Source: Candidatus Krumholzibacteriia bacterium
Lineage (GTDB): Bacteria; Krumholzibacteriota; Krumholzibacteriia; LZORAL124-64-63
Length of the DNA: 54,644 nt
Direction of reading: 5' to 3'
Assembly (NCBI GenBank): GCA_030592845.1
Contig: JAUVII010000005.1
Span: forward strand, 1 to 54,644
A program made the translations under genes and the position numbers. Under the pieces are notes generated by a model. It saw only the letters and a program-made list of their open reading frames with translations. It was not told the origin of the DNA and did no database searches. This document shows, in pieces, positions 2,281 through 14,301 of the stretch; position 1 is the first letter of the stretch; every line of letters starts with the position of its first letter.

Positions 2281-3219
2281 ATGTCCGCGGTTCTCGAAGT
2301 CAAATCTCTGCGCAAGGAATTCGGCGATCTCACCGCCGTCGACGGCATTTCCTTCGACATCCAGGAGGGTGAGATCTTTGGCTTTCTCGGCCCCAACGGA
2401 GCGGGCAAGACGACCAGCATCTCCATGATCTGCGGCCTGCTCAAGCCCACGGCGGGAGAAGTGTTCGTGGAGGGCGTCAGCATCCTGAAAAATCCGCGCG
2501 AGGTCAAAAAAAGGCTGGGCGTGGTGCCGCAGGAAGTGGCGATCTACGAGGAGCTTTCGGCGCGGGAAAACCTGTCTTTCTGGGGCGGGATTTTCGGCAT
2601 GGGCGGAAGCAAACTTCGCAGCCGGGTGGACGAACTTCTGGAACAGGTCGGTCTTGAAGACCGCGCCAAGGAACCCACCAAGAATTTTTCGGGCGGCATG
2701 AAACGCCGCCTCAATCTAGCCCTGGGCCTGGTGCACGACCCCAAGTTGATCCTGCTGGACGAGCCCACGGTGGGCATCGATCCCCAGGCGCGGCACAACA
2801 TCCTGGACGTGGTCAAGGCGATCGTGGCCGGCGGCCGGACGGTTTTGTACACCACCCACTATCTCGAAGAAGCCGAAGACCTCTGCGACCGGCTGGCCAT
2901 CATCGATCACGGGAAGATTTTGTCCCAGGGAACCGTTGGTGAGCTGAAAACCCAGCTCGGTGAAGGCAGCCTGCTGACGGTGCAGGGCGATTTCCAGGCG
3001 GCGACCCTAAGCAAAGCGGTAACGGGTGTCGATGGCCTGATGCCCATCGAGATCGACGACAAACGCGCCATGCTTCTGGTTTCGCGCGATGGTCCGGGGG
3101 TCAGCCACAGTCTGGAAGGCCTGTTTTCCCAGGGACTTACCTTTGACGACATCACCATCAAGGAGCCCAACCTGGAAGATCTTTTCCTGAAGCTCACCGG
3201 CCGGGAGCTGCGCAATTGA
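2281..3219 (+). CDS. ABC-2 type exporter ATPase
   Basis: This is the nucleotide-binding subunit of an ABC-2 exporter (312 aa). It shows Walker A GPNGAGKTT, signature FSGGMKRR, Walker B LILLDEPTVGID and the H-switch region TTHYLEEAE, followed by a C-terminal extension of about 80 residues typical of the DrrA/NatA group. I chose ATG 2281 (MSAVLEVKSL) because homologues begin there; an in-frame upstream ATG at 2128 would add about 50 AT-rich, non-homologous residues. It lies 37 bp before the first of two permease genes, so the three form one export operon. The substrate (lipid, drug or ion) cannot be read from the sequence. Confidence 0.95.
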   Translation: MSAVLEVKSLRKEFGDLTAVDGISFDIQEGEIFGFLGPNGAGKTTSISMICGLLKPTAGEVFVEGVSILKNPREVKKRLGVVPQEVAIYEELSARENLSFWGGIFGMGGSKLRSRVDELLEQVGLEDRAKEPTKNFSGGMKRRLNLALGLVHDPKLILLDEPTVGIDPQARHNILDVVKAIVAGGRTVLYTTHYLEEAEDLCDRLAIIDHGKILSQGTVGELKTQLGEGSLLTVQGDFQAATLSKAVTGVDGLMPIEIDDKRAMLLVSRDGPGVSHSLEGLFSQGLTFDDITIKEPNLEDLFLKLTGRELRN

Positions 3220-3256
3220 GGGCCCGGGTAGCACAGTCAGCCGAGGGAGGTTCAAC

Positions 3257-4507
3257 ATGTGGGTGTTGATCCGCAAGGACCTGCTCAGACGCTGGCGCAG
3301 TCCTCTGTCCACCATCGTGATGATCATTTTCCCGTTGTTCATGAGTCTGGCCATCGGGAGCATCAGCGGTGGGAGCGACGGTGGGTCCGAGTTTCCGCGC
3401 ATCAAGGTTCTGCTGCAGAACAACGATAAGGACGGCTTCCTGTCCAACGCGATCATGGGGTCGGCGGGACAGGGGGAGGGACAGGAATACCTGGAACTCG
3501 TGGAAGTCGGCGACGAGGGAACGGAATTGATGAACGAGGGCAAGGCCAGCGCCATGATCGTATTGCCCGAAAATTTCACCACCAAGGTATTCAATCGCGA
3601 ACCTGTCGAAATTCTGGTGGTGCGCAATCCGGCCGAAGGTATCAAGCCTGAAATCGTGGTCCAGGGCGCCGACGTGGTCGCGACCTATCTCGATCAGGGC
3701 GCGCGGCTGCTGGGCGAGGAACTGGGCATCATCCAGGTGATGATGGAATCCGAGAGCATTCCGGCCTCGGCCAAGGTCGGCGCGGTGGCGGCGGGGATCA
3801 CCACAAAGATCAACGGGGTGGAGAAATACCTGTTTCCACCGCTTGTGGAAATCGGCAGCGTCAAGGAAGACGACGAGGAAGAGGGTTCCAGTGGGGGATT
3901 CAGTGTTTTCGGCTACATCCTGATCATGACCACAGTGATGGCGATGATGTTCGTGGCCACACGGAGCATGGGGGACATCTTCGAAGAGCAGAACAACGGC
4001 ATGCTCAAACGGCAGCTCAGTACGCCCATGGGTATCGGTATGATCGTGGGCGCCAAAACGGTGTTCGGGGTGGTGTTCGGGGTCATCGTGCTGATGATTC
4101 TGGGGATCATCGGGTTTGTGCTCGGGTGGATTTCGCAGCCGGTTGATCTGTTGGCGGCGGTGCTGCTGGGGATCTCCTTCAGTCTGGCCGCCTGCGGGTT
4201 CCTGGCCCTTATATTGAGTCTGGTTAAGACCGAAAAACAGGCCGGGATCATGGGCTGGCTCGTGATCATGGGCATGAGCGCCATCGGCGGCAGCATGATG
4301 CCGATCCACAACATGCCCGCGCCTCTGCAGGCCGCGGCTCGGTACACAATCAATTTCTGGGCGGTCGACGGCTACACCCGGCTGGTCTATTCCGGTGAAG
4401 GGTTGAGCGACATCATGGGGAACATCGTCCGGCTGCTGATCATCGGCGCGGTTACCATCACGGTGGCCCAGGCCCTGCTTGTTCGTCGATTCCGGGAGGT
4501 GTCATGA
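3257..4507 (+). CDS. ABC-2 type permease (first)
   Basis: A 416-aa inner-membrane permease partner of the upstream ATPase. One N-terminal membrane segment (about residues 18-38) is followed by a large periplasmic domain of some 180 residues, then five hydrophobic segments in the C-terminal half, which is the ABC2_membrane_3 layout. The RBS GGGAGG lies 6 nt before ATG 3257. The gene overlaps the next permease by ATGA, indicating translational coupling and a probable heterodimeric channel. Family assignment is firm; the cargo is unknown. Confidence 0.92.
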   Translation: MWVLIRKDLLRRWRSPLSTIVMIIFPLFMSLAIGSISGGSDGGSEFPRIKVLLQNNDKDGFLSNAIMGSAGQGEGQEYLELVEVGDEGTELMNEGKASAMIVLPENFTTKVFNREPVEILVVRNPAEGIKPEIVVQGADVVATYLDQGARLLGEELGIIQVMMESESIPASAKVGAVAAGITTKINGVEKYLFPPLVEIGSVKEDDEEEGSSGGFSVFGYILIMTTVMAMMFVATRSMGDIFEEQNNGMLKRQLSTPMGIGMIVGAKTVFGVVFGVIVLMILGIIGFVLGWISQPVDLLAAVLLGISFSLAACGFLALILSLVKTEKQAGIMGWLVIMGMSAIGGSMMPIHNMPAPLQAAARYTINFWAVDGYTRLVYSGEGLSDIMGNIVRLLIIGAVTITVAQALLVRRFREVS

Positions 4508-5682
4508 TGGGACGCATCCTGCATCTGGCCGTTCACGACACGAAGCTGTTCATCATCGCCAAGGAAAACTTCTTTTTCATGTTCCTGATGCCCGTGATGT
4601 TCATGCTGTTCTTCAGCACGATGCTGGGGGGCGGCGGGCCGACGGACGTGATGATCTCGCTGCAGGTGATCAATGCGGACGAGGGCTTCATGGGCGACAT
4701 CTTCCTCGATCAGCTGCGCAGCGAGAAGTTTGATATCGATCTGCTCACGACGGCCCAGGCCGATACCACTGATTATATCCGCCGCCTCGCCATACCCGCC
4801 GATTTTACGGCCAAGGTGCTGGCGACTGAGCAAGTCCAGCTGGATTTCATCAAGAAATCCCAAAGCAACATCGAATACGACGCGGCCGCGGACGTGAGTC
4901 TTCACCAGGCCCAGGTGGCGTTCCTGGGGGGCCTGATTCGCTGGGAACACCAGACCGGGGCCACGGTCACCGCCGCGGACGAGGGCCGGCTGAAGAAACT
5001 GATCGCCGCTCCGACCCGGGTCACGGTGGCCCAGACCCATGCCGGAACGGGACGTCCGGTGGCTTCGGGCGCGGGCCAGTCCATCCCCGGCATGCTCACC
5101 ATGTTCATGATCATGACGGTGCTGATCGGCGGCAGCCAGAGCCTGACGGCCGAAAAACTGCATGGCACTCTGGCGCGTCTGGCGACGACACCCATGTCGC
5201 GCGGTGAGATCATCATGGGCAAACTGCTTCACCTGGGCATGGTCGGGTTCGTGCAGGCCATGGTTTTAATGGCCGCCGGCCAGATGATCGGCGTGGTGGG
5301 TCTGTTCGGCATCGAGTTCACCTGGGGGCCCAACTGGTGGGTCGTGATGCTGTTCCTCGTTCCCTTCTCGTTTACCGTGTCGGGATTGACGCTGCTGTTC
5401 GGCGGTCTGTTCCGGACCACCCAGCAGGCCGAAAGTCTCGGCTGGCTGATCGGGATGATATTTTCGGCCCTGGGAGGATGCTGGTGGCCGTTGGAGATCA
5501 TGCCGCGCACCGCCCAGATGATCGGCTGGTTCACGCCGACCTACTGGTCCATGACGGCGTTGCATGGAGTGGTGACTTTCGGGCGGGGACTGGACGCGAT
5601 CGTTGGTCCGACGCTCATCCTGACGGTATTCGGTGTGCTGTTTGCCTGGTTGGGCGCGCGGACGCTTCGGGTGACGAGTTGA
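4504..5682 (+). CDS. ABC-2 type permease (second)
   Basis: A 392-aa permease with the same architecture as its upstream neighbour: one N-terminal membrane helix (FFFMFLMPVMFMLFF), a periplasmic domain to about residue 190, then a cluster of helices containing the ABC-2 core (TMFMIMTVLIGGSQSL and ...GGLFRTTQQAESLGW). Its start ATG overlaps the preceding TGA (4505-4507). With the ATPase and first permease it makes a complete exporter of the NatAB/YhhJ-YbhFSR type. No accessory membrane-fusion protein lies next to it. Confidence 0.92.
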   Translation: MMGRILHLAVHDTKLFIIAKENFFFMFLMPVMFMLFFSTMLGGGGPTDVMISLQVINADEGFMGDIFLDQLRSEKFDIDLLTTAQADTTDYIRRLAIPADFTAKVLATEQVQLDFIKKSQSNIEYDAAADVSLHQAQVAFLGGLIRWEHQTGATVTAADEGRLKKLIAAPTRVTVAQTHAGTGRPVASGAGQSIPGMLTMFMIMTVLIGGSQSLTAEKLHGTLARLATTPMSRGEIIMGKLLHLGMVGFVQAMVLMAAGQMIGVVGLFGIEFTWGPNWWVVMLFLVPFSFTVSGLTLLFGGLFRTTQQAESLGWLIGMIFSALGGCWWPLEIMPRTAQMIGWFTPTYWSMTALHGVVTFGRGLDAIVGPTLILTVFGVLFAWLGARTLRVTS

Positions 5683-5746: not shown

Positions 5747-6685
5747 CTACCAGCCTTCTATATAGTAATAATCGAACTCTGAAAGCACGGTCTTGGTGAA
5801 CCCCCAGGCCTCGTTGTAGCTCAGGCCGCTGTCGTCGGGGATGACGATCTTGATGTAGAGCTCTTCGCCCAACCGATCTTTCAGGGCGCCCAGCCGTTTG
5901 AACATTTCGATGCGGGTAATCTCTTCCCACTGGTCGGCGTTGATCCCCTTGAACAGATATTGGAACTGCCCGTTATCCCGGCGGTATTGCACCGAGGCCA
6001 CCTGCTTGCCCATCGAACTGCGGGCGGGTCGCACCAGTTTGAGATATTTGTCTTCCAGGGACGAAAAATCCTGCCGCTGCCGGGCGAGAGCCATTTCCAT
6101 ATCGCCTTTTTCGTCGCTCAAGGTTAGCAGGGTGGCCTCGTTTTTTTCCAACTGGCTCAAGAGGTCCGCGATCTGCAGACTCAGTTCGCGGTTGGCCCGT
6201 TCGGCTTCGTCCCGAATGCCGCCGATCATGGCCTGGGCGCCTTCCAGCTCTTCTTCTTTTTCACTGAGCTGCATCCGGATGAGGCGGATGTTTTCCTCGA
6301 GTTCCCTGTTTTCACCTTCCAGCCGGGCGATGGCCGCGGCCTTGATGTCGCGGCTGGCCTCAAGGCGCTGCGCCTCGTCCGTCAGCAGGATGATTTCCAT
6401 GCGCGAACTGCGGATCGCCTCTTCGAGGTCGGTGTTGCGCACCCGCAGATCGGCCAGCACCTGGGTGTTGGAGGCGAGGTGGTGTTCGGCCTCGGCCTGC
6501 AGCTGTCGGCTCAGGCGGATCTGGTCGATGAGGTCGGCGTTCTTGATGATCACCACGACCATCGTCAGCATAAACACCATCAAAATGACGGTCATGATGT
6601 CGGTGAACGAGGGCCAGAGCGAGGTGTCGTTCGAGGACGACGACCGGTTGAGCCTCAAGTCGGGATAGCCGCGAAAATTGTGCAC
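5747..6685 (-). CDS. MotB/ZorB-like motor subunit with long periplasmic coiled coil
   Basis: A 312-aa protein with a GTG start at 6685; AAGGAGG lies 7 nt upstream. A short cytoplasmic N-terminus leads into one membrane helix (about 29-52) with the motif WPSFTDIMTV; Asp29 is placed like the proton-carrying Asp of MotB, ZorB and ExbD. Residues about 55-215 are strongly charged, heptad-like coiled coil. A compact C-terminal domain (about 220-312) contains YIKIVIPDDSGLSYNEAW; it is not the OmpA-type peptidoglycan-binding domain of MotB and may have an ExbD/TolR-like fold. The MotA-like partner ends 16 bp upstream. The energised-motor role is inferred from family; the cellular task is unknown. No ZorC, ZorD or ZorE neighbour is present. 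Confidence 0.8.
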   Translation of the reverse strand: MHNFRGYPDLRLNRSSSSNDTSLWPSFTDIMTVILMVFMLTMVVVIIKNADLIDQIRLSRQLQAEAEHHLASNTQVLADLRVRNTDLEEAIRSSRMEIILLTDEAQRLEASRDIKAAAIARLEGENRELEENIRLIRMQLSEKEEELEGAQAMIGGIRDEAERANRELSLQIADLLSQLEKNEATLLTLSDEKGDMEMALARQRQDFSSLEDKYLKLVRPARSSMGKQVASVQYRRDNGQFQYLFKGINADQWEEITRIEMFKRLGALKDRLGEELYIKIVIPDDSGLSYNEAWGFTKTVLSEFDYYYIEGW

Positions 6686-6701
6686 AGGTCGCCTCCTTTC
6701 T

Positions 6702-7658
6702 TTACCGGTTCAGCCTGAATCCTTCGATCAAAACGTTGCGCAATTCGGCCAATCCGGCCAGGGACTCGTCCATTTTGTCGTTTTGGGTTTCCTGCCGGGC
6801 GATCATCTCGTTGCCCTGTTCCTGCCGGGCCCGGGCGGTGTCATCGATGCGATCCACCGCGCCTTCGATGCCGCCGAGACCCTGGCGCATTTCCGTGACC
6901 AAGGCGCGAACATCTTCGACAAGCAGTTTGGCCTGATGGTTGATGGTCTCGGTTTCGTAAGCGAAATCGGGGACCATGTACAACAGCGACGCGCGTTCCA
7001 GGCGGCTGATGACCCAGGTCTGCAGGTCGGTGAACCTGTGGAAAAAATAGGTGAAGAAGAAGTAGCAGACGATGGCCGTGGCCGTGGTGGTCAGGGCGGT
7101 GTTCATGCCCAGCAGCATCAGGCCCATGCCGGAGCCGGGAACGGCAGTCTGCAGCACGTCGGTCGCGCCGATCAGTGCAAAGATCAGCGAACTGACGGTG
7201 CCGAACACGCCGGTCAGGATCAGCACGTTGTTCACGAAGCGGGGAAACGAAAGATGCAGTGATTCGCCCGCCAGCATGATGGCTGAAATCGCGCCGTGGT
7301 CCACCGGGCCGCCGCCTTCGAACAGTTCCTTGATGGTGGCGTGGCGTTCGCGCAGCAAAGAGGGCTGATCGAATTCGGTCAGTACCTGATCAGTGGGGTA
7401 GCCCTCGGCGCGGCGGGCCATGAACTCGGTGATCTGGGCTTCCTGGCGTTCGTAGTGACGGACGCCGCGGAACAATTGCCAGACTCCCAGGGCAAACAGA
7501 ACCAGGATGACCCCATTAAGAATCAACGGCCGCGGATCGCCGAACAGAACGGCGGCCACCGCATCGATCTTCCACAGGAAAATCAGAACGGCCGTAATTA
7601 CTGCGGCCGCGAGTACGACTATCATCTGGATAAGGATTTGCCGGCTGCGTGGCGCCAT
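6702..7658 (-). CDS. MotA/TolQ/ExbB-like proton-channel subunit (ZorA-like)
   Basis: A 318-aa membrane protein. Two N-terminal helices (about 8-29 and 43-65) and a cytoplasmic segment precede the core pair of helices: FVNNVLILTGVFGTVSSLIF (about 142-161) and GMNTALTTTATAIVCYFFF (about 180-198). The small and hydroxyl residues in these two helices match the ion-path helices of TolQ/ExbB/MotA. The C-terminal 110 residues are cytoplasmic, amphipathic and probably coiled coil. Much shorter than Zorya ZorA, it lacks that protein's long tail. It is the first gene of a two-gene operon with the MotB-like protein, consistent with a 5:2 stator-type motor. Confidence 0.8.
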   Translation of the reverse strand: MAPRSRQILIQMIVVLAAAVITAVLIFLWKIDAVAAVLFGDPRPLILNGVILVLFALGVWQLFRGVRHYERQEAQITEFMARRAEGYPTDQVLTEFDQPSLLRERHATIKELFEGGGPVDHGAISAIMLAGESLHLSFPRFVNNVLILTGVFGTVSSLIFALIGATDVLQTAVPGSGMGLMLLGMNTALTTTATAIVCYFFFTYFFHRFTDLQTWVISRLERASLLYMVPDFAYETETINHQAKLLVEDVRALVTEMRQGLGGIEGAVDRIDDTARARQEQGNEMIARQETQNDKMDESLAGLAELRNVLIEGFRLNR

Positions 7659-7844: not shown

Positions 7845-7892
7845 GAATGTTTTAAGCGGTAAATGTCCCGGCGATGCTTTAGATTCGACCCC

Positions 7893-10004
7893 ATGAATCT
7901 TCGTGGATTAAACAACGACCGCCCAATGCTGATCGCGGCCGGAATCATGGGCGCCCTCTTCTATTGGTTCCGTTTCGGCCTGGGATTCCTGAACCCCACC
8001 CGCATCGACTGGCTGCTGGGCATGGGCGACACCGCCTTCAACCAGCTCGCCTGGACGTTTTTCCGATACGATTCCTGGCACTGGCCTCCGGGCGTGGTCA
8101 AAACTTTCATGGCTCCGGGTGGCACCACCATCGGCGTCACCGATTCCCTGCCCCTGCTGGCTTTTCCCTTCAAACTGATTTCTTTCATGCTGCCCGAGAC
8201 CTTCCAGTACGCGGGCTTGTGGCTGTTGATCAATCACGTTTTGATGGCCGTTTTCGCGATCCGCGTTACGGGAATGTTTTTCCGGCCTCTTTTGCCGCGG
8301 TTTCTTGCCGCCGGCGTCCTTGTTTTGTGTCCGGCCTGGCTCATCCGCGACGGTCATTTCGCGTTATCGGCGCATTGGGTCTATCTGGCGGCCCTGTGGC
8401 TGTACCTGAAACCGGCATCCGGCCAGGGCGGCCGACCCTGCCTGGCCTGGTGGCTGCTGCTTGCGGTGGCGGCCTGGATCCATCCCTACCCGGCGACTTT
8501 CACGTTCGGTTTTCTGGCCGCGGATCAGGGGCGACGCTGGTTTGTGGCCCGGGAAATTTCTCCCGCCAAGGCCCTGGTCACCCTGGGAGTCGGCGCGGTG
8601 GTGCTGGTCTTCATGTGGTCGATGGCGGGATTCCTGCGGATCGGACATCTGCCCATCGGCGATCTAAAAGATGACAGGCTCTGGCAGGCCGGTTTTAACG
8701 CGCTGTGGAATTCCCAGGGGCGGACCCTTTTATTGCCAGGGCTTCCGTTGGGAAACCGCGATGCGTTCGAGGGTTTTGTTTATCTGGGAGCGGGGGGGTT
8801 GCTCGCTGCCCTGGCAGCCGTTGCCCTGGGCGGAGGCAGGCGGTTGGGCGCGCGAATTGGCCGGCACTGGCCCTTGATGGTCATGCTGCTGGTGTGCGCC
8901 CTCTATGCTTTCAGCCCCCGCACAGATCTGGGCGATCAGCTGTTCCGGGCCCCGGCCCGGTTTCTGTGGCCTCATTTCTACGTTCTGGCGGTGGCGGGTT
9001 TGGCGGCTGTGGCCCGCTGGGGCCGACCCCGTCTGTCCCTGGCTTTGGTGGCGGCGATTTTTATGGTCCAGGCCATCGACCTGGCCCCGCTTTTCGACCG
9101 CAAATCCGCATACGATGCCCACCCGTTTGTTTCCCGGTTGCAGGATCCCCAGTGGCAGGTGGCGCTGGCCTCGGCCGACATGCTGTTGACCACGCCTTCG
9201 ACCACCGCGACAACTGTGTTCGAGGAGGATTTCATCGATCTGGCGATGCTGGCCCATCAGGCGGGCGTGCCGACCACAGCGGGATTCGCCACCCGCAGCT
9301 ACATGGGCGGCATGACGGCCGCCACGGATTTAACGCGCGCTTTCCTGTTCAGCGGCAGTCCCGACCCCCGGACGGTGGGTGTGATCCGCCGGTCCCACTT
9401 TGCCGAGATGTTCCCCGACTTCGCGGCAAATCTTCGCTGCACCGATCTGGATGGTTTTCCGGTGTGCTTTGCGCGCCGGGGTGGTTTCCAGCCGGAGTTG
9501 GAGTATCGGGTCGCGGCGGTCGGGCTGGCTGAGTTCATGGCTGCGAACCTGGACCGGACCTTGATTCTGGTGGGCAAGGATGACGCGCGAAACGCGCTGA
9601 CAAACGCAGCTGTCCGACTGCTTACCGAGCAGGGGTCCCGCATCGCCCAACTTCAAACCGGGGCTTCCTATGCGGCCATATTCGTCCACGGAAAACCGGT
9701 GTTCGAGCAGATGAACCCACAAAGTGCCATAGAGGTGACGGGCTTGCCCAACTCGGATCTCGGGCCGTTGAAAATCATGAGGGAGCTGAACATTACTTCC
9801 AGCGGGACGGCATCCGAAGCTTATGCCTCACTGCTGGTCGATGGCCGGGAAGTAATGTTCAACAGCGACGGTTTGAACGTGGCGGTGCTGGACGACGAAC
9901 AGAACGTGTTGGCCGTGGGAACCTTCGCCCACCCGAATTCTCTTCCCGATCTGGCCACGGTCACCGGCGGTTTGGTTTTTACGCTTGTCCCGGTCCAGCC
10001 CTGA
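7893..10004 (+). CDS. Polytopic membrane protein, DUF6311-like
   Basis: A protein of about 703 aa starting MNLRGLNNDR; an in-frame ATG at 7863 is possible. About ten membrane helices occupy residues 10-430, with loops such as GMGDTAFNQLAWTFFRYD and SLPLLAFPFKL, as in the GT-C-like DUF6311 family. A soluble C-terminal part of about 270 residues follows. GT-C proteins use lipid-linked sugars on the periplasmic side, but no catalytic residue can be assigned here. A TAGATT hexamer lies 7 nt before ATG 7893 and no Shine-Dalgarno is visible, so translation may be leaderless. Role in envelope glycan or lipid modification is inferred only from family. Confidence 0.75.
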   Translation: MNLRGLNNDRPMLIAAGIMGALFYWFRFGLGFLNPTRIDWLLGMGDTAFNQLAWTFFRYDSWHWPPGVVKTFMAPGGTTIGVTDSLPLLAFPFKLISFMLPETFQYAGLWLLINHVLMAVFAIRVTGMFFRPLLPRFLAAGVLVLCPAWLIRDGHFALSAHWVYLAALWLYLKPASGQGGRPCLAWWLLLAVAAWIHPYPATFTFGFLAADQGRRWFVAREISPAKALVTLGVGAVVLVFMWSMAGFLRIGHLPIGDLKDDRLWQAGFNALWNSQGRTLLLPGLPLGNRDAFEGFVYLGAGGLLAALAAVALGGGRRLGARIGRHWPLMVMLLVCALYAFSPRTDLGDQLFRAPARFLWPHFYVLAVAGLAAVARWGRPRLSLALVAAIFMVQAIDLAPLFDRKSAYDAHPFVSRLQDPQWQVALASADMLLTTPSTTATTVFEEDFIDLAMLAHQAGVPTTAGFATRSYMGGMTAATDLTRAFLFSGSPDPRTVGVIRRSHFAEMFPDFAANLRCTDLDGFPVCFARRGGFQPELEYRVAAVGLAEFMAANLDRTLILVGKDDARNALTNAAVRLLTEQGSRIAQLQTGASYAAIFVHGKPVFEQMNPQSAIEVTGLPNSDLGPLKIMRELNITSSGTASEAYASLLVDGREVMFNSDGLNVAVLDDEQNVLAVGTFAHPNSLPDLATVTGGLVFTLVPVQP

Positions 10005-10109: not shown

Positions 10110-10547
10110 TCAATCGTAGGCCAGACGCGTTTCCCTATCAGACAATAGTTCTTTGAGATCATCCTGCGCGACCATCCCCGGCCAGGTTTTCAGATCCTGA
10201 TGGACCAGATGGTACTTCTCGGGAATCGGATGCGTACCCATGACCACTTCCATGCCGAATTTGCGCGGAATGAACTCCATAAAATAATCCAGATGGGGGC
10301 AGGGCGGATAGCCCACCACCAGGCCCGTGGCCAGGTGAACCACGTCGGCCCCGTTGTTCATCATTTCCTCGGGCGCGTATTCCACGTTGCCGCCGGGACA
10401 GCCCCCGCAGGTGGTGTAGCCGACGAGTTCGACTTCTTCGTCCTTGTAGCGCGCGAATCCACCGGTGCGTTCTCTCAGGGACCGAAGGCATTTTCCGCCG
10501 GCGCACGTATGGTACCGGTCACAGATGATGATGCCGACCTTCTTCAT
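10110..10547 (-). CDS. CGGC domain protein (putative metal-binding)
   Basis: A 145-aa cytosolic protein of the CGGC family (PF08821), seen from the N-terminal KKVGIIICDRYHTCAGGKCL, the central TTCGGCPGGNVEY and PPCPHLDYF. Family members carry conserved Cys clusters thought to bind metal; the biochemical role is not established. I start it at the internal ATG 10547 because GGAGG lies 5 nt upstream, whereas the longer frame from 10562 would place that RBS inside the coding region. It is the last gene of the minus-strand NifX/MinD cluster, 28 bp after the thioesterase gene, which suggests redox or metal metabolism. Confidence 0.85.
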   Translation of the reverse strand: MKKVGIIICDRYHTCAGGKCLRSLRERTGGFARYKDEEVELVGYTTCGGCPGGNVEYAPEEMMNNGADVVHLATGLVVGYPPCPHLDYFMEFIPRKFGMEVVMGTHPIPEKYHLVHQDLKTWPGMVAQDDLKELLSDRETRLAYD

Positions 10548-10575
10548 TGTTTCCTCCATCATTGCGGGACAGCGG

Positions 10576-11010
10576 TTACTCCGGGTATTCCATGAATTTG
10601 GCGGACGCGGTGGCCAGAATCTCGCCGTCCTGGGTCAGCTCCGCGCCAAGGATGTGCAGGGTGCCGCGGGATTTTTCCAGCCAGCCCCTGACTGTCACCG
10701 GTTTGCCGATCAATACCGGTTTCAGGAAACGGACTTCGAGCCTGGCGGTGAGACCCGGGGTTCCGCGCGCCATCAGGCAGTTGGTCATGGCGCCGTCCAG
10801 AAGAGAGGAAACAACACCGCCGTGCAGGTAGCCGGGATAGCCGGTGAATACCTCGTCACAGGAAAAACTCCCAGTGACGGTGCCCGTCCCATCCTCTTTG
10901 AAATCCACCGCCAGTCCGTGTTCATTGGCCGCGGAGCAGACCCAGCAGTGGGGATGCCGCCGTGACCGGGTGGCTGCGTAATCGCCGGAACCGTTAGTGG
11001 TCGCAGGCAT
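10576..11010 (-). CDS. PaaI-type hotdog thioesterase
   Basis: A 144-aa single hotdog domain with the PaaI-group signature YLHGGVVSSLLDGAM and the following strand ARLEVRFLKPV. Such enzymes hydrolyse acyl-CoA thioesters in the cytosol. The N-terminal HCWVCSAANEHGL is also typical of this group and gives a Cys pair of unknown purpose. The gene overlaps the end of the upstream NifX-like gene by 17 bp, so it is translated with the cofactor cluster although a direct functional link is not evident. Confidence 0.88.
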   Translation of the reverse strand: MPATTNGSGDYAATRSRRHPHCWVCSAANEHGLAVDFKEDGTGTVTGSFSCDEVFTGYPGYLHGGVVSSLLDGAMTNCLMARGTPGLTARLEVRFLKPVLIGKPVTVRGWLEKSRGTLHILGAELTQDGEILATASAKFMEYPE

Positions 11011-11332
11011 TGGAGCCGGCTCCGATCTCCCCGGCGAGGTAGCTGAGGGCCAGTGATTCGGGATCGAGAGAAGGCGCTCCCACGATCACCTCGACGCCAT
11101 GTTTGGCGAAAATTTGAATGGCCATGTTTCCCATGCCGCCGGCCAGCACCAGGTTGGCGCCCTGTTCCGCCAGCCAGGCGGGCAGCACTCCGGGTTCGTG
11201 CGCCGGGGCGTCGACGGTTTCATTGTTGGTGATTTTCTTTTCGTCCAGGTCCACATCGACCAGGGCGAAGTGTTTGCAATGTCCGAAATGCGGGTCGAGC
11301 TTTCCTTCGGAGACGGGAATCGCGATACGCAT
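10994..11332 (-). CDS. NifX/NafY-like dinitrogenase cofactor-biosynthesis family protein
   Basis: A 112-aa RNase H-like fold protein of the Nitro_FeMo-Co family: MRIAIPVSEGKLDPHFGHCKHF, the turn LAGGMGNMAIQIF and a C-terminal tail ending GSNACDH that could hold metal. In anaerobes such proteins bind Mo- or Fe-containing clusters; the Desulfovibrio orange protein, which binds a Mo-Cu cluster, belongs to this family. No nif genes occur here, so a nitrogenase role is unlikely. It follows the second MinD gene by 3 bp and overlaps the thioesterase gene. Confidence 0.88.
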   Translation of the reverse strand: MRIAIPVSEGKLDPHFGHCKHFALVDVDLDEKKITNNETVDAPAHEPGVLPAWLAEQGANLVLAGGMGNMAIQIFAKHGVEVIVGAPSLDPESLALSYLAGEIGAGSNACDH

Positions 11333-11335
11333 GGT

Positions 11336-12262
11336 TCATCCTTTCGAAATTGTCGGAAGTTTCGGGAGGGATTCGTTGGCCAAATGGCACTCAATCCCGT
11401 GCCAAATGGCAGTCATAACATGAGCAGCCTCACTTTGGGGAGCGAATTCGATCAGGCTGCGCCCATGAGCCTGGGCATCGTTCACCAGGGGTTCAAAGGG
11501 AATCTTACCGATCACGGGAAGATCCTTCTCGCGGCAGTATTCCTCGATCAGTGTGGTCAGCCGCGGGCTCAGGTCAAACTTGTTGATGCAGACCATGGCC
11601 GGCACTCGAAAATGGGCGGCCAGATCCACGATGCGCCGCAGGTCGTGAAGCCCGGACAAACTGGGCTCGGTCACCAACAGGGTAAGGTCGGCCCCGGTCA
11701 GGGCCGCAGTCACGGGGCAGCCGATGCCCGGTGGCCCATCCACCAGGATCAAATCGTGATCCGCACGTTCAGCCAGCCCCCGCGCCTGTTCGCGGACCTT
11801 GCTGACAAGTTTGCCGGAATTTTCCGCGCCCACATCCAGCGCGGCGTGCACCAGGGGTCCGAACAGGGTTTGTGATACGTACCATTCCCCGCAGCGCCGG
11901 CTGGGGAAATCGATGGCCTCGGTGGGACAGAACCGCACGCAGACCCCGCAGCCTTCGCACAGAAGCGGGTCGATTTCGTAGGTCACACCGCCACCCTGAC
12001 TCTCAATTTTATCGATGGCCGAAAACCGGCACAGGGCATGGCACTCGCCGCAGGCCGCGCAGTCATCCTGCCTGATTTCCGCCGTATGGCCGGCGATGAA
12101 CGGGGTGGTCTTTTCAATGACCGGATTCAATACCAGATGCAGGTTGGCGGCATCGACATCGCAGTCCGCCATCACGAAATTTTCGGCCAGGGAGGCCAGG
12201 CTCGCCACGACGCTGGTCTTGCCGGTGCCGCCTTTGCCGCTGCATACCACTATTTCCATCAT
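11336..12262 (-). CDS. MinD/Mrp-type P-loop ATPase with inserted ferredoxin domain (second copy)
   Basis: A 308-aa deviant-Walker ATPase, motif SGKGGTGKTS at the N-terminus and VDGPPGIGCPV in the middle. An inserted two-[4Fe-4S] ferredoxin (about residues 65-120) is seen as CAACGECHALC and CEGCGVCVRFCP. The fold is that of Fe-S scaffold or carrier ATPases (Mrp/NBP35 superfamily) and of the MinD-like proteins in the Desulfovibrio orp locus. It overlaps the preceding paralogue by 4 nt (ATGA), so the two are probably made in equal amounts and may form a heterodimer. Electron-coupled metal-cluster handling is inferred. Confidence 0.9.
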   Translation of the reverse strand: MMEIVVCSGKGGTGKTSVVASLASLAENFVMADCDVDAANLHLVLNPVIEKTTPFIAGHTAEIRQDDCAACGECHALCRFSAIDKIESQGGGVTYEIDPLLCEGCGVCVRFCPTEAIDFPSRRCGEWYVSQTLFGPLVHAALDVGAENSGKLVSKVREQARGLAERADHDLILVDGPPGIGCPVTAALTGADLTLLVTEPSLSGLHDLRRIVDLAAHFRVPAMVCINKFDLSPRLTTLIEEYCREKDLPVIGKIPFEPLVNDAQAHGRSLIEFAPQSEAAHVMTAIWHGIECHLANESLPKLPTISKG

Positions 12263-13110
12263 GCCGTCACCTCCCGGGATTGCAGGGCCAGAAACAATTC
12301 AGTCAGGGCGTCGGCCACCTCGGGGTCGGCTTCGATGGCCAATCCTCCCTCGGCGCAGACCTCGGCCACCTCGCGACGAAATGGAATTCGAGCCAGGATC
12401 TCGACATTTTCCTCGGCGCAGAAATCATCCACTGGGCTTTGGAGGGTGCTGGCCCGGTTGATCACCACGCCGCAGGGTATACCCAGCTTTCTGGTCAGGT
12501 CCAGGGCCAGGGCCAAATCGTGCTGACCGAAGGGCGTGGGTTCGGTGACCAACAGAACGTAGTCGGCGCCGCGCAGGGTTTCGACCACGGGGCAGGTCGT
12601 TCCCGGGGGCGCGTCCATGATGACCCAGGGTTCGTCGCCGGGAACTCCCTTGACCGCCTCGATCAACGGCGGCACCAGGGTTTCCCCGACCCGCAGCAGG
12701 CCCTGGGTAAAGGCCAGATCGCCGGCCGTTCCGGTGGATACCTCACCCAAGGGTCGCTCGCTGGGAGTCATGGCCTCATGGGGGCAGACCAGCCAGCATC
12801 CGCCGCAGCTGTGGCACAGGTCGGCAAAGATCATGGTTTTTTCCGGCAGGCAGGCGATGGCGTTGAACTCGCAGAAATCGGCGCACTCACCGCAATGGTT
12901 GCACAAGTCGTGGTCGACCACGGGAATGGGAGTCGTCACCGACCAGGCCCTGCTGATGTCGGGCTCGAGAAAGAGATGGGCGTTGGGTTCTTCGACATCG
13001 CAGTCGCATAAATGGACGGTCTGTCCCGCCCGCGCGGCGGTCAGCGCGAGGTTGACCGCCACGGTGGTCTTGCCCGTCCCGCCCTTGCCGCTGGCTATGG
13101 CGATACGCAT
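12259..13110 (-). CDS. MinD/Mrp-type P-loop ATPase with inserted ferredoxin domain (first copy)
   Basis: A 283-aa paralogue of the next gene. It has SGKGGTGKTT, a ferredoxin insert with CNHCGECADFC and CHSCGGCWLVCP, and MDAPPGTTCPV. I place the start at ATG 13110 (MRIAIASGKGG): the longer frame from 13188 would overlap the upstream NifX-like gene and add a non-homologous leader. A purine-rich RBS lies about 9 nt upstream. Tandem ferredoxin-bearing MinD ATPases next to NifX-like proteins are a known conserved arrangement in sulfate reducers and other anaerobes. Confidence 0.9.
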   Translation of the reverse strand: MRIAIASGKGGTGKTTVAVNLALTAARAGQTVHLCDCDVEEPNAHLFLEPDISRAWSVTTPIPVVDHDLCNHCGECADFCEFNAIACLPEKTMIFADLCHSCGGCWLVCPHEAMTPSERPLGEVSTGTAGDLAFTQGLLRVGETLVPPLIEAVKGVPGDEPWVIMDAPPGTTCPVVETLRGADYVLLVTEPTPFGQHDLALALDLTRKLGIPCGVVINRASTLQSPVDDFCAEENVEILARIPFRREVAEVCAEGGLAIEADPEVADALTELFLALQSREVTA

Positions 13111-13126
13111 ATCGGCATCAAGCCTT

Positions 13127-13486
13127 TCAGTGGCGGGTGATCCCGTCGGGCGCGGCCAAGGGTTCGAGGTCGCCGTTTCTCCAGGCATTCACGGCGTCGA
13201 GAACCGTTCCCTCGAATCCGGAATAGATTTTTACACCGCCGGCAGCCAACACATCGAACGCCTTGGGTCCGCAGTGTCCGGTCAGCAGAGCTTCGGCTCC
13301 AAACTCGATGACTTTCTGCGCGGCCTGGACTCCGGCGCCCTGGGCGGCTTCGGCCTGCTCGGAGTTGTCGGAAGAAACAAATGATTCGGACTCGGAATCG
13401 TACTGGATGAAATACCGGGCCCTGCCGAAGCGGGGGTCGACCCGGTCGGAAGGTTTCGGCCCTTCGGAAGTAATGATCAGTTTCAT
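13127..13486 (-). CDS. NifX-like dinitrogenase cofactor family protein (operon leader)
   Basis: A 119-aa Nitro_FeMo-Co family protein beginning MKLIITSEGPKPSDRVDPRFGR, with HCGPKAFDVLAAGGVKIY near the middle. The DPRFGR motif and the GHCGPKA loop are family hallmarks. It is the first gene of the minus-strand cluster and is transcribed away from the DUF134 gene, sharing a 99-bp control region. RBS GGAGG lies 5-6 nt before the ATG. The bound cluster, if any, cannot be told from sequence. Confidence 0.88.
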   Translation of the reverse strand: MKLIITSEGPKPSDRVDPRFGRARYFIQYDSESESFVSSDNSEQAEAAQGAGVQAAQKVIEFGAEALLTGHCGPKAFDVLAAGGVKIYSGFEGTVLDAVNAWRNGDLEPLAAPDGITRH

Positions 13487-13523
13487 GACGGCCTCCTGTT
13501 TCGTTATCGAATAAAATCAGTAT

Positions 13524-13554
13524 TTGACGTTTGGCTGTTTTGAGTATATGCTCA
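13524..13554 (+). promoter_or_regulatory. Promoter with palindromic operator candidate upstream of DUF134 gene
   Basis: A -35-like TTGACG (13524-13529) and -10-like TATGCT (13547-13552) are spaced by 17 nt. The -10 is overlapped by TGAGTATATGCTCA (13541-13554), a palindrome with a single mismatched pair. The site lies in the divergent spacer of the cluster, 31 bp before the DUF134 start, and could be the binding site of that regulator. Confidence 0.45.
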
Positions 13555-13585
13555 TAACAACAGAAAATCAACCTGGAGGATTTCC

Positions 13586-13969
13586 TTGCCCCGACCACAG
13601 AAACCACGCGCCGTACGTCACGATCCCGAAGTGGTTCATTTTAAACCCGCGGGAGTGCCCATGCGGCTGCTCCAAGAGGTGACCCTGGGGCTCGACGAAC
13701 TCGAGGCCCTGCGCTTGGCGGACCTGGAAAGCCTTTCCCACGAACAAGTTGGAGAGATGATGAATGTGTCACGGGCCACGGCGGGACGTATCCTGGCCGA
13801 AGCTCGTCGCAAGACGGCCGCCGCCCTCGTCCATGGGTGGGCCATTAGGGTGGAGGGCGGCGCCGTCAAAACAATCAAGGACGAAGAGGATACGATATGC
13901 GATCACCCGGGCCGCGGCAGGGGCCGCGGGCGGGGGCGCGGACGCGGGCGTGGTGGGGGCGGCTGCTGA
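13586..13969 (+). CDS. DUF134 helix-turn-helix regulator with Gly/Arg-rich tail
   Basis: A 127-aa protein with a TTG start at 13586; AGGAGG-like sequence 13573-13580 decides it. Residues 1-100 are the DUF134 family: MPRPQKPRAVRHDPEV, a GVPM segment and a sigma-70 region 4-like helix-turn-helix (LSHEQVGEMMNVSRATAGRIL). The last 20 residues are a near-perfect Gly/Arg alternation ending in GGGGC. It diverges from the NifX/MinD operon and probably regulates it and itself; this is inferred from position. The lone C-terminal Cys and basic tail are unusual and could reflect nucleic-acid or metal binding, or repeat slippage. Confidence 0.88.
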   Translation: MPRPQKPRAVRHDPEVVHFKPAGVPMRLLQEVTLGLDELEALRLADLESLSHEQVGEMMNVSRATAGRILAEARRKTAAALVHGWAIRVEGGAVKTIKDEEDTICDHPGRGRGRGRGRGRGRGGGGC

Positions 13970-14013
13970 ACCGGTTGATCCGGAAAGAAACCAAAAGAAT
14001 TAGGAGAAATGAC

Positions 14014-14301
14014 ATGCCTGGTGAAAACAAAAGAGGACCCATGGGCGAAGGCCCCCGCACGGGACGCGGTCTCGGGCGATGCAACAACAACACCGAAACA
14101 AATGACACAAACGTGAACGATCAGCAGGACACCACCCGTGATTTCGGTCCGGGTCCGGGTCGCGGTATGGGCCGTGGATTTGGTAGGGGACCTGGAAGAG
14201 GCCCGGGCCGCGGGTTTGGTCGTGGGCCGGGACAGGAGCCAGGGCAGGGACCCGGACGAGGACCTGGCCGGGGCCGCGGATTCGGCCGGGGCAACCGCTG
14301 A
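14014..14301 (+). CDS. DUF5320-like Gly/Arg/Pro-rich protein
   Basis: A 95-aa protein starting at ATG 14014, with TAGGAGA 7 nt upstream; a longer frame from 13897 overlaps the DUF134 gene and is not used. The N-terminus MPGENKRGPMGEGPRTGRGLG matches the DUF5320 pattern (MPxxDRTGPxGxGPxTGRGxGxC), here with the terminal Cys at residue 23. A polar Asn/Thr linker follows, then about 45 residues of repeated Gly-Arg/Gly-Pro. These small proteins often accompany NifX/MinD/DUF134 genes; function is unknown. The tail is low complexity and probably disordered. Confidence 0.75.
   Translation: MPGENKRGPMGEGPRTGRGLGRCNNNTETNDTNVNDQQDTTRDFGPGPGRGMGRGFGRGPGRGPGRGFGRGPGQEPGQGPGRGPGRGRGFGRGNR

Follow-up and report, generated by a model that had tools for sequence, protein, structure and literature searches.

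A two-gene operon in a Krumholzibacteria genome very probably encodes an ion-driven membrane motor. The pair is a new, lineage-specific member of the motor family to which the flagellar stator and the Tol, Ton and Zorya machines belong; it does not amount to a new category of system. On balance, we think it somewhat probable that it works as a 5:2-class motor whose rod is an envelope-spanning force transducer, with a partner encoded elsewhere.

The operon and its channel subunit

The operon comprises two genes in the order A to B at 5747-7658, on the minus strand of the window (the whole 54,644-nucleotide stretch of DNA analyzed, from a 3.7-Mb draft genome, a Krumholzibacteria MAG). The initial annotation had described such a two-gene unit, and both reading frames are found where it placed them (ORF calls). 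The features of the locus are:

6702..7658, minus strand: gene A, MotA/ExbB/ZorA-type channel subunit, 318 aa (ORF, hydropathy, AF2, Foldseek)
6692..6697, minus strand: AGGAGG, Shine-Dalgarno site of gene B, immediately following the A stop codon (sequence)
5747..6685, minus strand: gene B, axle subunit, 312 aa (ORF, orthologues)

Gene A stops with TAA at 6702-6704 and gene B starts with GTG at 6683-6685, 6 nt from the AGGAGG, a strong ribosome site. The start position of B is the same in its orthologues, which use ATG or GTG, and in one of them the A stop overlaps the B start (TAATG). Both genes are under purifying selection (dN/dS ~0.15-0.26, NG86). Together with the orthologous pairs in further genomes and the invariant Asp29/WPSFTDIM segment of B, this shows that the pair is not a chance arrangement; conservation here and below is drawn from 11-12 related sequences (Neff ~2).

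Subunit A has four predicted membrane helices (hydropathy). The window sequence scores 16 bits with Pfam MotA_ExbB, below the cut-off of 22.9, and an orthologue in G066 passes it at 23.0 bits. The AF2 model of A (mean pLDDT 75) matched ExbB, TolQ, PomA and ZorA chains with Foldseek probabilities of 0.93-1.00 (best E 0.0017), the best matches being ExbB/TolQ chains at 1.00. This fold, together with conserved pore motifs, bears out the MotA/TolQ/ZorA-like core that had been proposed for A. Its mapped parts are:

7041..7232, minus strand: A residues 143-206, two pore-lining helices with GVFGTV (T154) and ALTTT (T191/T192) (profile alignment, conservation)
6705..6953, minus strand: A residues 236-318, cytoplasmic helical tail (AF2 helix 236-315, alignment indels)
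6711..6722, minus strand: A residues 313-316, GFRL tail-tip motif (invariant in 12 orthologues)

GVFGTV and ALTTT are invariant in the 12 A orthologues, and profile alignment with classical ExbBs of the same family places GVFGTV on GLLGTV and ALTTT on ALVTT. A Ser/Thr ring around the B aspartate has been described for ZorAB and MotAB (PMC11890865), and from the aligned sequences we infer that the GVFGTV/ALTTT residues of A sit at the positions of this ring. Between membrane helices 2 and 3, the AF2 model, of middling confidence here, shows short cytoplasmic helices; in flagellar stators of the FIT group, four or more helices between these two membrane helices make up the torque interface (PMC12505986). 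The tail of ~80 residues, predicted as a helix (236-315) with low to middling AF2 confidence, varies among orthologues in both sequence and length, with indels in the alignment. The GFRL codons differ synonymously between orthologues, indicating that constraint acts on the protein. Constant although the tail before it varies, GFRL looks like a docking peptide for a cytoplasmic partner.

The axle subunit: membrane helix, rod and cap

Subunit B consists of a single membrane helix, a long coil and a compact C-terminal cap, which we mapped as follows:

6545..6616, minus strand: B residues 24-47, single membrane helix WPSFTDIMTVILMVFMLTMVVVII (hydropathy, conservation, ZorB/PRK09039/PRK09040 matches)
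6599..6601, minus strand: codon of Asp29, the expected ion-carrying carboxylate (invariant 11/11, aligned with the ZorB Asp)
6041..6544, minus strand: B residues 48-215, periplasmic coiled-coil rod (AF2 helix 27-215, heptad period, gap-free columns)
5750..6010, minus strand: B residues 226-312, C-terminal cap, predicted b-b-b-a-b-a (AF2 secondary structure, conservation)

The membrane helix is the most recognizable part. Its mean column identity among full-length orthologues is 98.7%, and Asp29 and the surrounding WPSFTDIM, noted at the outset from a single sequence, are invariant in all 11 B sequences. The membrane segment by itself matched PRK09040, PRK09039 and ZorB1 at E ~1e-4. With the whole protein, PADLOC ZorB1 matched residues 14-80 (E=3.7e-7) and NCBIfam PRK09039 matched residues 14-192 (E=1.4e-7). 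Scores remained below the family cut-offs: 31.7 bits against an equivalog cut-off of 305 for PRK09039, which is set for the whole protein including its OmpA cap, and, for NCBIfam ZorB1, 19.9 bits where the whole-protein cut-off is 400. Pfam ExbD scored 13.3 bits on the N-terminal part (cut-off 25.4). Among solved structures, the sequences that best matched the B orthologue profile were the ZorB chains 8vvn, 8vvi and 8qyd, the first two of which are identified as ZorB structures in PMC11890865. By sequence comparison, the membrane segment of B is thus most like those of ZorB and the PRK09039/PRK09040 proteins.

Residues 27-215 form one helix in the AF2 model, with pLDDT >90 over most of residues 48-215. 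The rod contains no Pro and is 168 residues long, with zero indels in any full-length orthologue at 53-86% identity. The mean hydropathy profile of the orthologues has a heptad period of 3.52 (13/2000 shuffles as high); on the window sequence alone, periodicity was not significant (188/1000 shuffles as high). The initial annotation had proposed a periplasmic coil of about 160 residues; the AF2 helix and the heptads uphold the coil, but its length is now put at about 168 residues. A length kept constant down to 53% identity would suit a rod that acts in the periplasm as a ruler or shaft. With 0.1485 nm allowed for each residue, the rod would measure ~25 nm if straight; for the shaft of the GldM motor, PMC9389320 reports 18 nm. 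The model suggests that the rod may be straight and span the periplasm, and since it was predicted for a lone chain, the real rod may bend or fold back.

The cap is predicted (AF2) to run from two strands and a short third strand to a helix, another strand and a final helix, and its end is highly conserved (LYIKIVIPDDSGLSYNEAWxFTKxVLSEFDYYYxDGW). It had been described as not OmpA-like, and indeed Pfam scans of B up to E=10 returned no OmpA match (PF00691). Neither did the cap match Pfam ExbD or any other Pfam, NCBIfam or PDB family. Foldseek with the whole B model gave nothing significant, with no ExbD/TolR among the best 50 solved structures; weak RNase-H-like matches (E ~0.1) were judged uninformative. 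This search has little to say about the cap because the 190-residue helix dominates the model. We looked for a named Tol/Exb or Zorya subtype to which the cap might belong, and Pfam, NCBIfam and Foldseek gave none. In the order of its elements the cap resembles the periplasmic domain of ExbD/TolR, and profile comparison with 7, then 37 ExbDs of the same family gave a collinear alignment. Its score of 14.05 was reached by 11/200 column shuffles and is not significant; we therefore do not call the cap ExbD, and its likeness to ExbD is no more than a suggestion from the order of elements.

Distribution, inheritance and genomic neighbours

B was found in 13/80 genomes of the phylum and A in 12 of these 13; further A matches in two genomes (G002, G021) were at chance level and left out of the count. 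The pair-bearing genomes fall within one family-level group of 38 genomes, across five genera. The pair is single copy, and A and B are adjacent and in the same order wherever a contig covers both genes; the partial cases (G049, G067, G068) are explained by contig ends. Relatives outside the phylum were sought by sampling: in 387 genomes reaching out to the whole domain, full-length matches were confined to the same family, and a single outside match, N-terminal, occurred in G264. No relative of the pair was found in the plasmids or viral contigs searched. On inspection, none of the weak A-like matches in G045, G070, G038, G066 and G002 proved to be a cousin of the pair.

Mapped onto the RpoC tree, the distribution of the pair calls for at least 5-6 changes. 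In the trees of both A and B every genus is one clade and g4 is outermost, as it is for RpoC; this pattern agrees with vertical descent and recurrent loss and not with a mobile cassette. From these trees, inheritance with repeated loss would be the simplest reading; some transfer between lineages may also have taken place. In a congener lacking the pair (G063; L158, C298), the downstream neighbours are kept and other sequence stands at the place of B, with DNA similarity ending where the neighbouring gene ends. Absence there is therefore not an assembly gap. Patchy presence (13/80, at least 5-6 changes) argues against an indispensable envelope function.

The pair is flanked on one side by an ABC-2 exporter operon (2281-5682, plus strand) and on the other by a gene for a DUF6311 membrane protein (7863-10004). 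The exporter consists of one ATPase and two permeases; it is convergent with B and ends ~64 bp from the B stop. Beyond the DUF6311 gene, at 10110-13969, are genes for a CGGC-domain protein, a thioesterase, a dinitrogenase-cofactor-like protein and two 4Fe-4S MinD/ParA-type ATPases, and short Gly/Arg-rich ORFs (13586-14301) lie beside this cluster. An annotation scan of the window flanks found no Tol, Ton, Gld, flagellar or Zorya partner, in agreement with the initial annotation. Comparison of flanks across genera showed that A and B, with their opposite-strand reading-frame shadows, are alone common to all, and neither comparison placed TonB, TolA, TolB or Pal next to the pair. Thus the search for the pair and its conserved neighbours, which the annotation had recommended, led to 13/80 phylum genomes and nothing conserved besides A and B. 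The operon therefore consists of A and B alone, and a partner, if there is one, has its gene elsewhere; no partner gene for the pair was found.

These genomes carry other motors. Outside this locus, the genome of the window contains classical MotA_ExbB matches and ExbD matches, seven of each; it and its family also carry flagella and ExbB/ExbD sets of the classical kind, with FliG in 38/38 family genomes. The pair is therefore not the sole Tol, Ton or flagellar motor. In G066, a FliG-bearing contig (C4) has a classical MotA_ExbB match of MotA size. Another locus of that genome (L113; G066:C60:50500-57500) contains an unusual, weakly scoring ExbB-type gene adjoining a gene for a Por/Spr-like outer-membrane protein, and also a product ending in a FlgD/gliding-type C-terminal domain; these two products were named by reading the sequence. 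L113 is perhaps a type IX-like motor in Krumholzibacteria.

Proposed mechanism and comparison with known systems

By analogy with the family, we propose that two B subunits would dimerize with their membrane helices enclosed by an inner-membrane channel of five A subunits, and that ions passing via Asp29 would turn A and B against each other. The 5:2 assembly and the rotation are drawn from this analogy, and the envelope role is likewise a proposal. The B dimer would extend as a periplasmic rod of fixed length, crossing the whole periplasm if straight, and set the paired cap at a fixed distance from the membrane, at or beyond the cell wall. There the cap could grip peptidoglycan or an outer-membrane-side partner encoded elsewhere, so that force would be transmitted through the envelope for envelope maintenance or an outer-membrane process. 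The rod would then play the part that TolA/TonB or the GldM shaft play in their motors; GldM has been proposed to load its partner as a shaft. About 25 nm is roughly the width of a periplasm, and it is this length, the absence of indels from the rod and the lack of a linked cytoplasmic effector that lead us to favour an envelope-spanning transducer. A long coil need not imply outer-membrane contact, however, as coil-bearing pairs with OmpA caps indicate. A more specific version, in which a rigid, fixed-length axle across the periplasm turns or pulls an outer-membrane-side partner via a new cap fold, without TonB, TolA or a ring adaptor, is offered tentatively and is rather unlikely as a whole. 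If true, it would add a further design by which ion energy at the inner membrane is delivered to the outer membrane, confined to one Krumholzibacteria family, and a cap bound to an outer-membrane partner would mean a new way of energizing that membrane.

In MotAB and ZorAB the wall is gripped, and A turns and acts inward. The pair might work in this mode, with a peptidoglycan-binding cap (possibly ExbD/TolR-like), B held still, A turning or signalling inward, and GFRL docking the partner. The membrane helix of B, nearest to ZorB and the MotB-like PRK09039/PRK09040, is in keeping with this, as are the ExbD-like order of the cap (two or three strands followed by a helix, a strand and a helix), its collinear alignment, and a tail tip that is invariant where the tail is not. 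The ExbD alignment, however, is not significant given the 11/200 column shuffles, neither Pfam ExbD/OmpA nor the best 50 Foldseek structures give the cap an identity of that kind, and the A tail (~80 residues) is short compared with that of ZorA; we consider a wall-anchored motor possible, if doubtful. If the pair were a Zorya-like anti-phage system in reduced or orphan form, with A and B sensing phage entry and an effector encoded elsewhere, this would explain the ZorB-type membrane helix (PADLOC ZorB1), the patchy distribution and the other sequence filling the site in the congener lacking the pair. Yet A has no PADLOC ZorA match, B has no OmpA cap and the tail is short, whereas defence is reported to need both the ZorA extension and the wall-binding domain of ZorB (PMC11890865). 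In addition, the window has no adjacent effector, no further gene is conserved beside the pair between genera, plasmids and viral contigs yielded no relatives, and the gene trees keep genera together. Such a defence role appears improbable.

We give still less credence to two other readings. The pair could be an accessory stator swapping into the flagellar motor of the family, for which FliG in all 38 genomes would supply a rotor; but the pair occurs in only 13 genomes, the FliG contig of G066 already bears a match of MotA size, and B is without an OmpA-like wall domain, the defining feature of flagellar stators (PMC12505986), making this very unlikely. It could also be a non-rotating ion channel or tether, with the Asp29 channel used for signalling only, since what is shown for the pair is its channel residues and a predicted fold; the conserved Asp and Thr nevertheless match those of force-generating members, and we find this reading equally hard to credit. 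Returning to the envelope-spanning transducer, the pair lets one ask whether the rod, by its length, measures out the width of the periplasm. With nothing else conserved, an indel-free rod and a new cap, it is also a clean object for the study of how a motor chooses its load. Non-flagellar 5:2 motors are numerous. Many of them have an unknown function (PMC12505986).

Among known systems, the PRK09039/PRK09040 pairs and the pair in G264 share with ours the A-B gene arrangement, the Trp-x-Ser-x-x-Asp-x-Met segment and a long coil, and the G264 pair likewise has no effector alongside. In contrast, their B subunits carry an OmpA-like C-terminal domain to which our cap is unrelated, and the A subunit of G264 has a long tail that ours lacks. 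The G264 pair (L117:2864-5258; G264:C1:119500-127500), in a Campylobacter-like genome, lies between an apparent fructose-bisphosphate aldolase gene and hisD-side genes as read from the sequence. It has an A tail of >200 residues, a B composed of coil and OmpA cap, and weak ZorA2 and ZorB1 matches. It looks like an uncharacterized relative class, and this OmpA-capped pair shows the wider class to which the Krumholzibacteria pair belongs.

Zorya ZorA-ZorB (types I and II; 8vvn, 8vvi, 8qyd) have the B membrane helix and Asp in common with the pair, and ZorA matches the fold of A at a modest TM-score. However, the pair lacks the OmpA-like cap and ZorC/D/E/F/G, the A tail is short, PADLOC gave no ZorA match for A, and none of the ZorC/D, ZorE or ZorF/G effectors stands beside the pair in the window or in the cross-genus flanks. 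ExbB-ExbD and TolQ-TolR are similar in the fold of A, the pore Thr motifs and the order of cap elements; they differ in that the pair has a 168-residue coil in B, four membrane helices in A, no TonB/TolA/Pal partner and a cap unmatched by ExbD profiles. GldL-GldM, the motor of type IX secretion and gliding, is also encoded by two genes and also has a B subunit that forms a long shaft in the periplasm, but GldM is built of four folded domains where B has a coil, no GldK/N lies beside the pair, and no GldM model of Pfam or NCBIfam matched B up to E=10. MotA-MotB and PomA-PomB share the four A membrane helices and the B Asp helix, whereas the pair is without the OmpA-like wall domain, a defining trait of flagellar stators of the FIT group (PMC12505986), and the flagellar genes are separate in these genomes.

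The tests for OmpA, ExbD, GldM and Zorya effectors all came out negative, and the pair is therefore none of those named systems. The initial annotation had ranked it as the window's leading candidate for an undescribed system. This holds in part: no named subtype accommodates the pair, but a class of MotA/MotB-like pairs that stand alone and have a coiled coil is already known (NCBIfam PRK09039/PRK09040; G264). The novel points relative to that class are the cap, the invariant length of the rod and the restriction to one Krumholzibacteria family.
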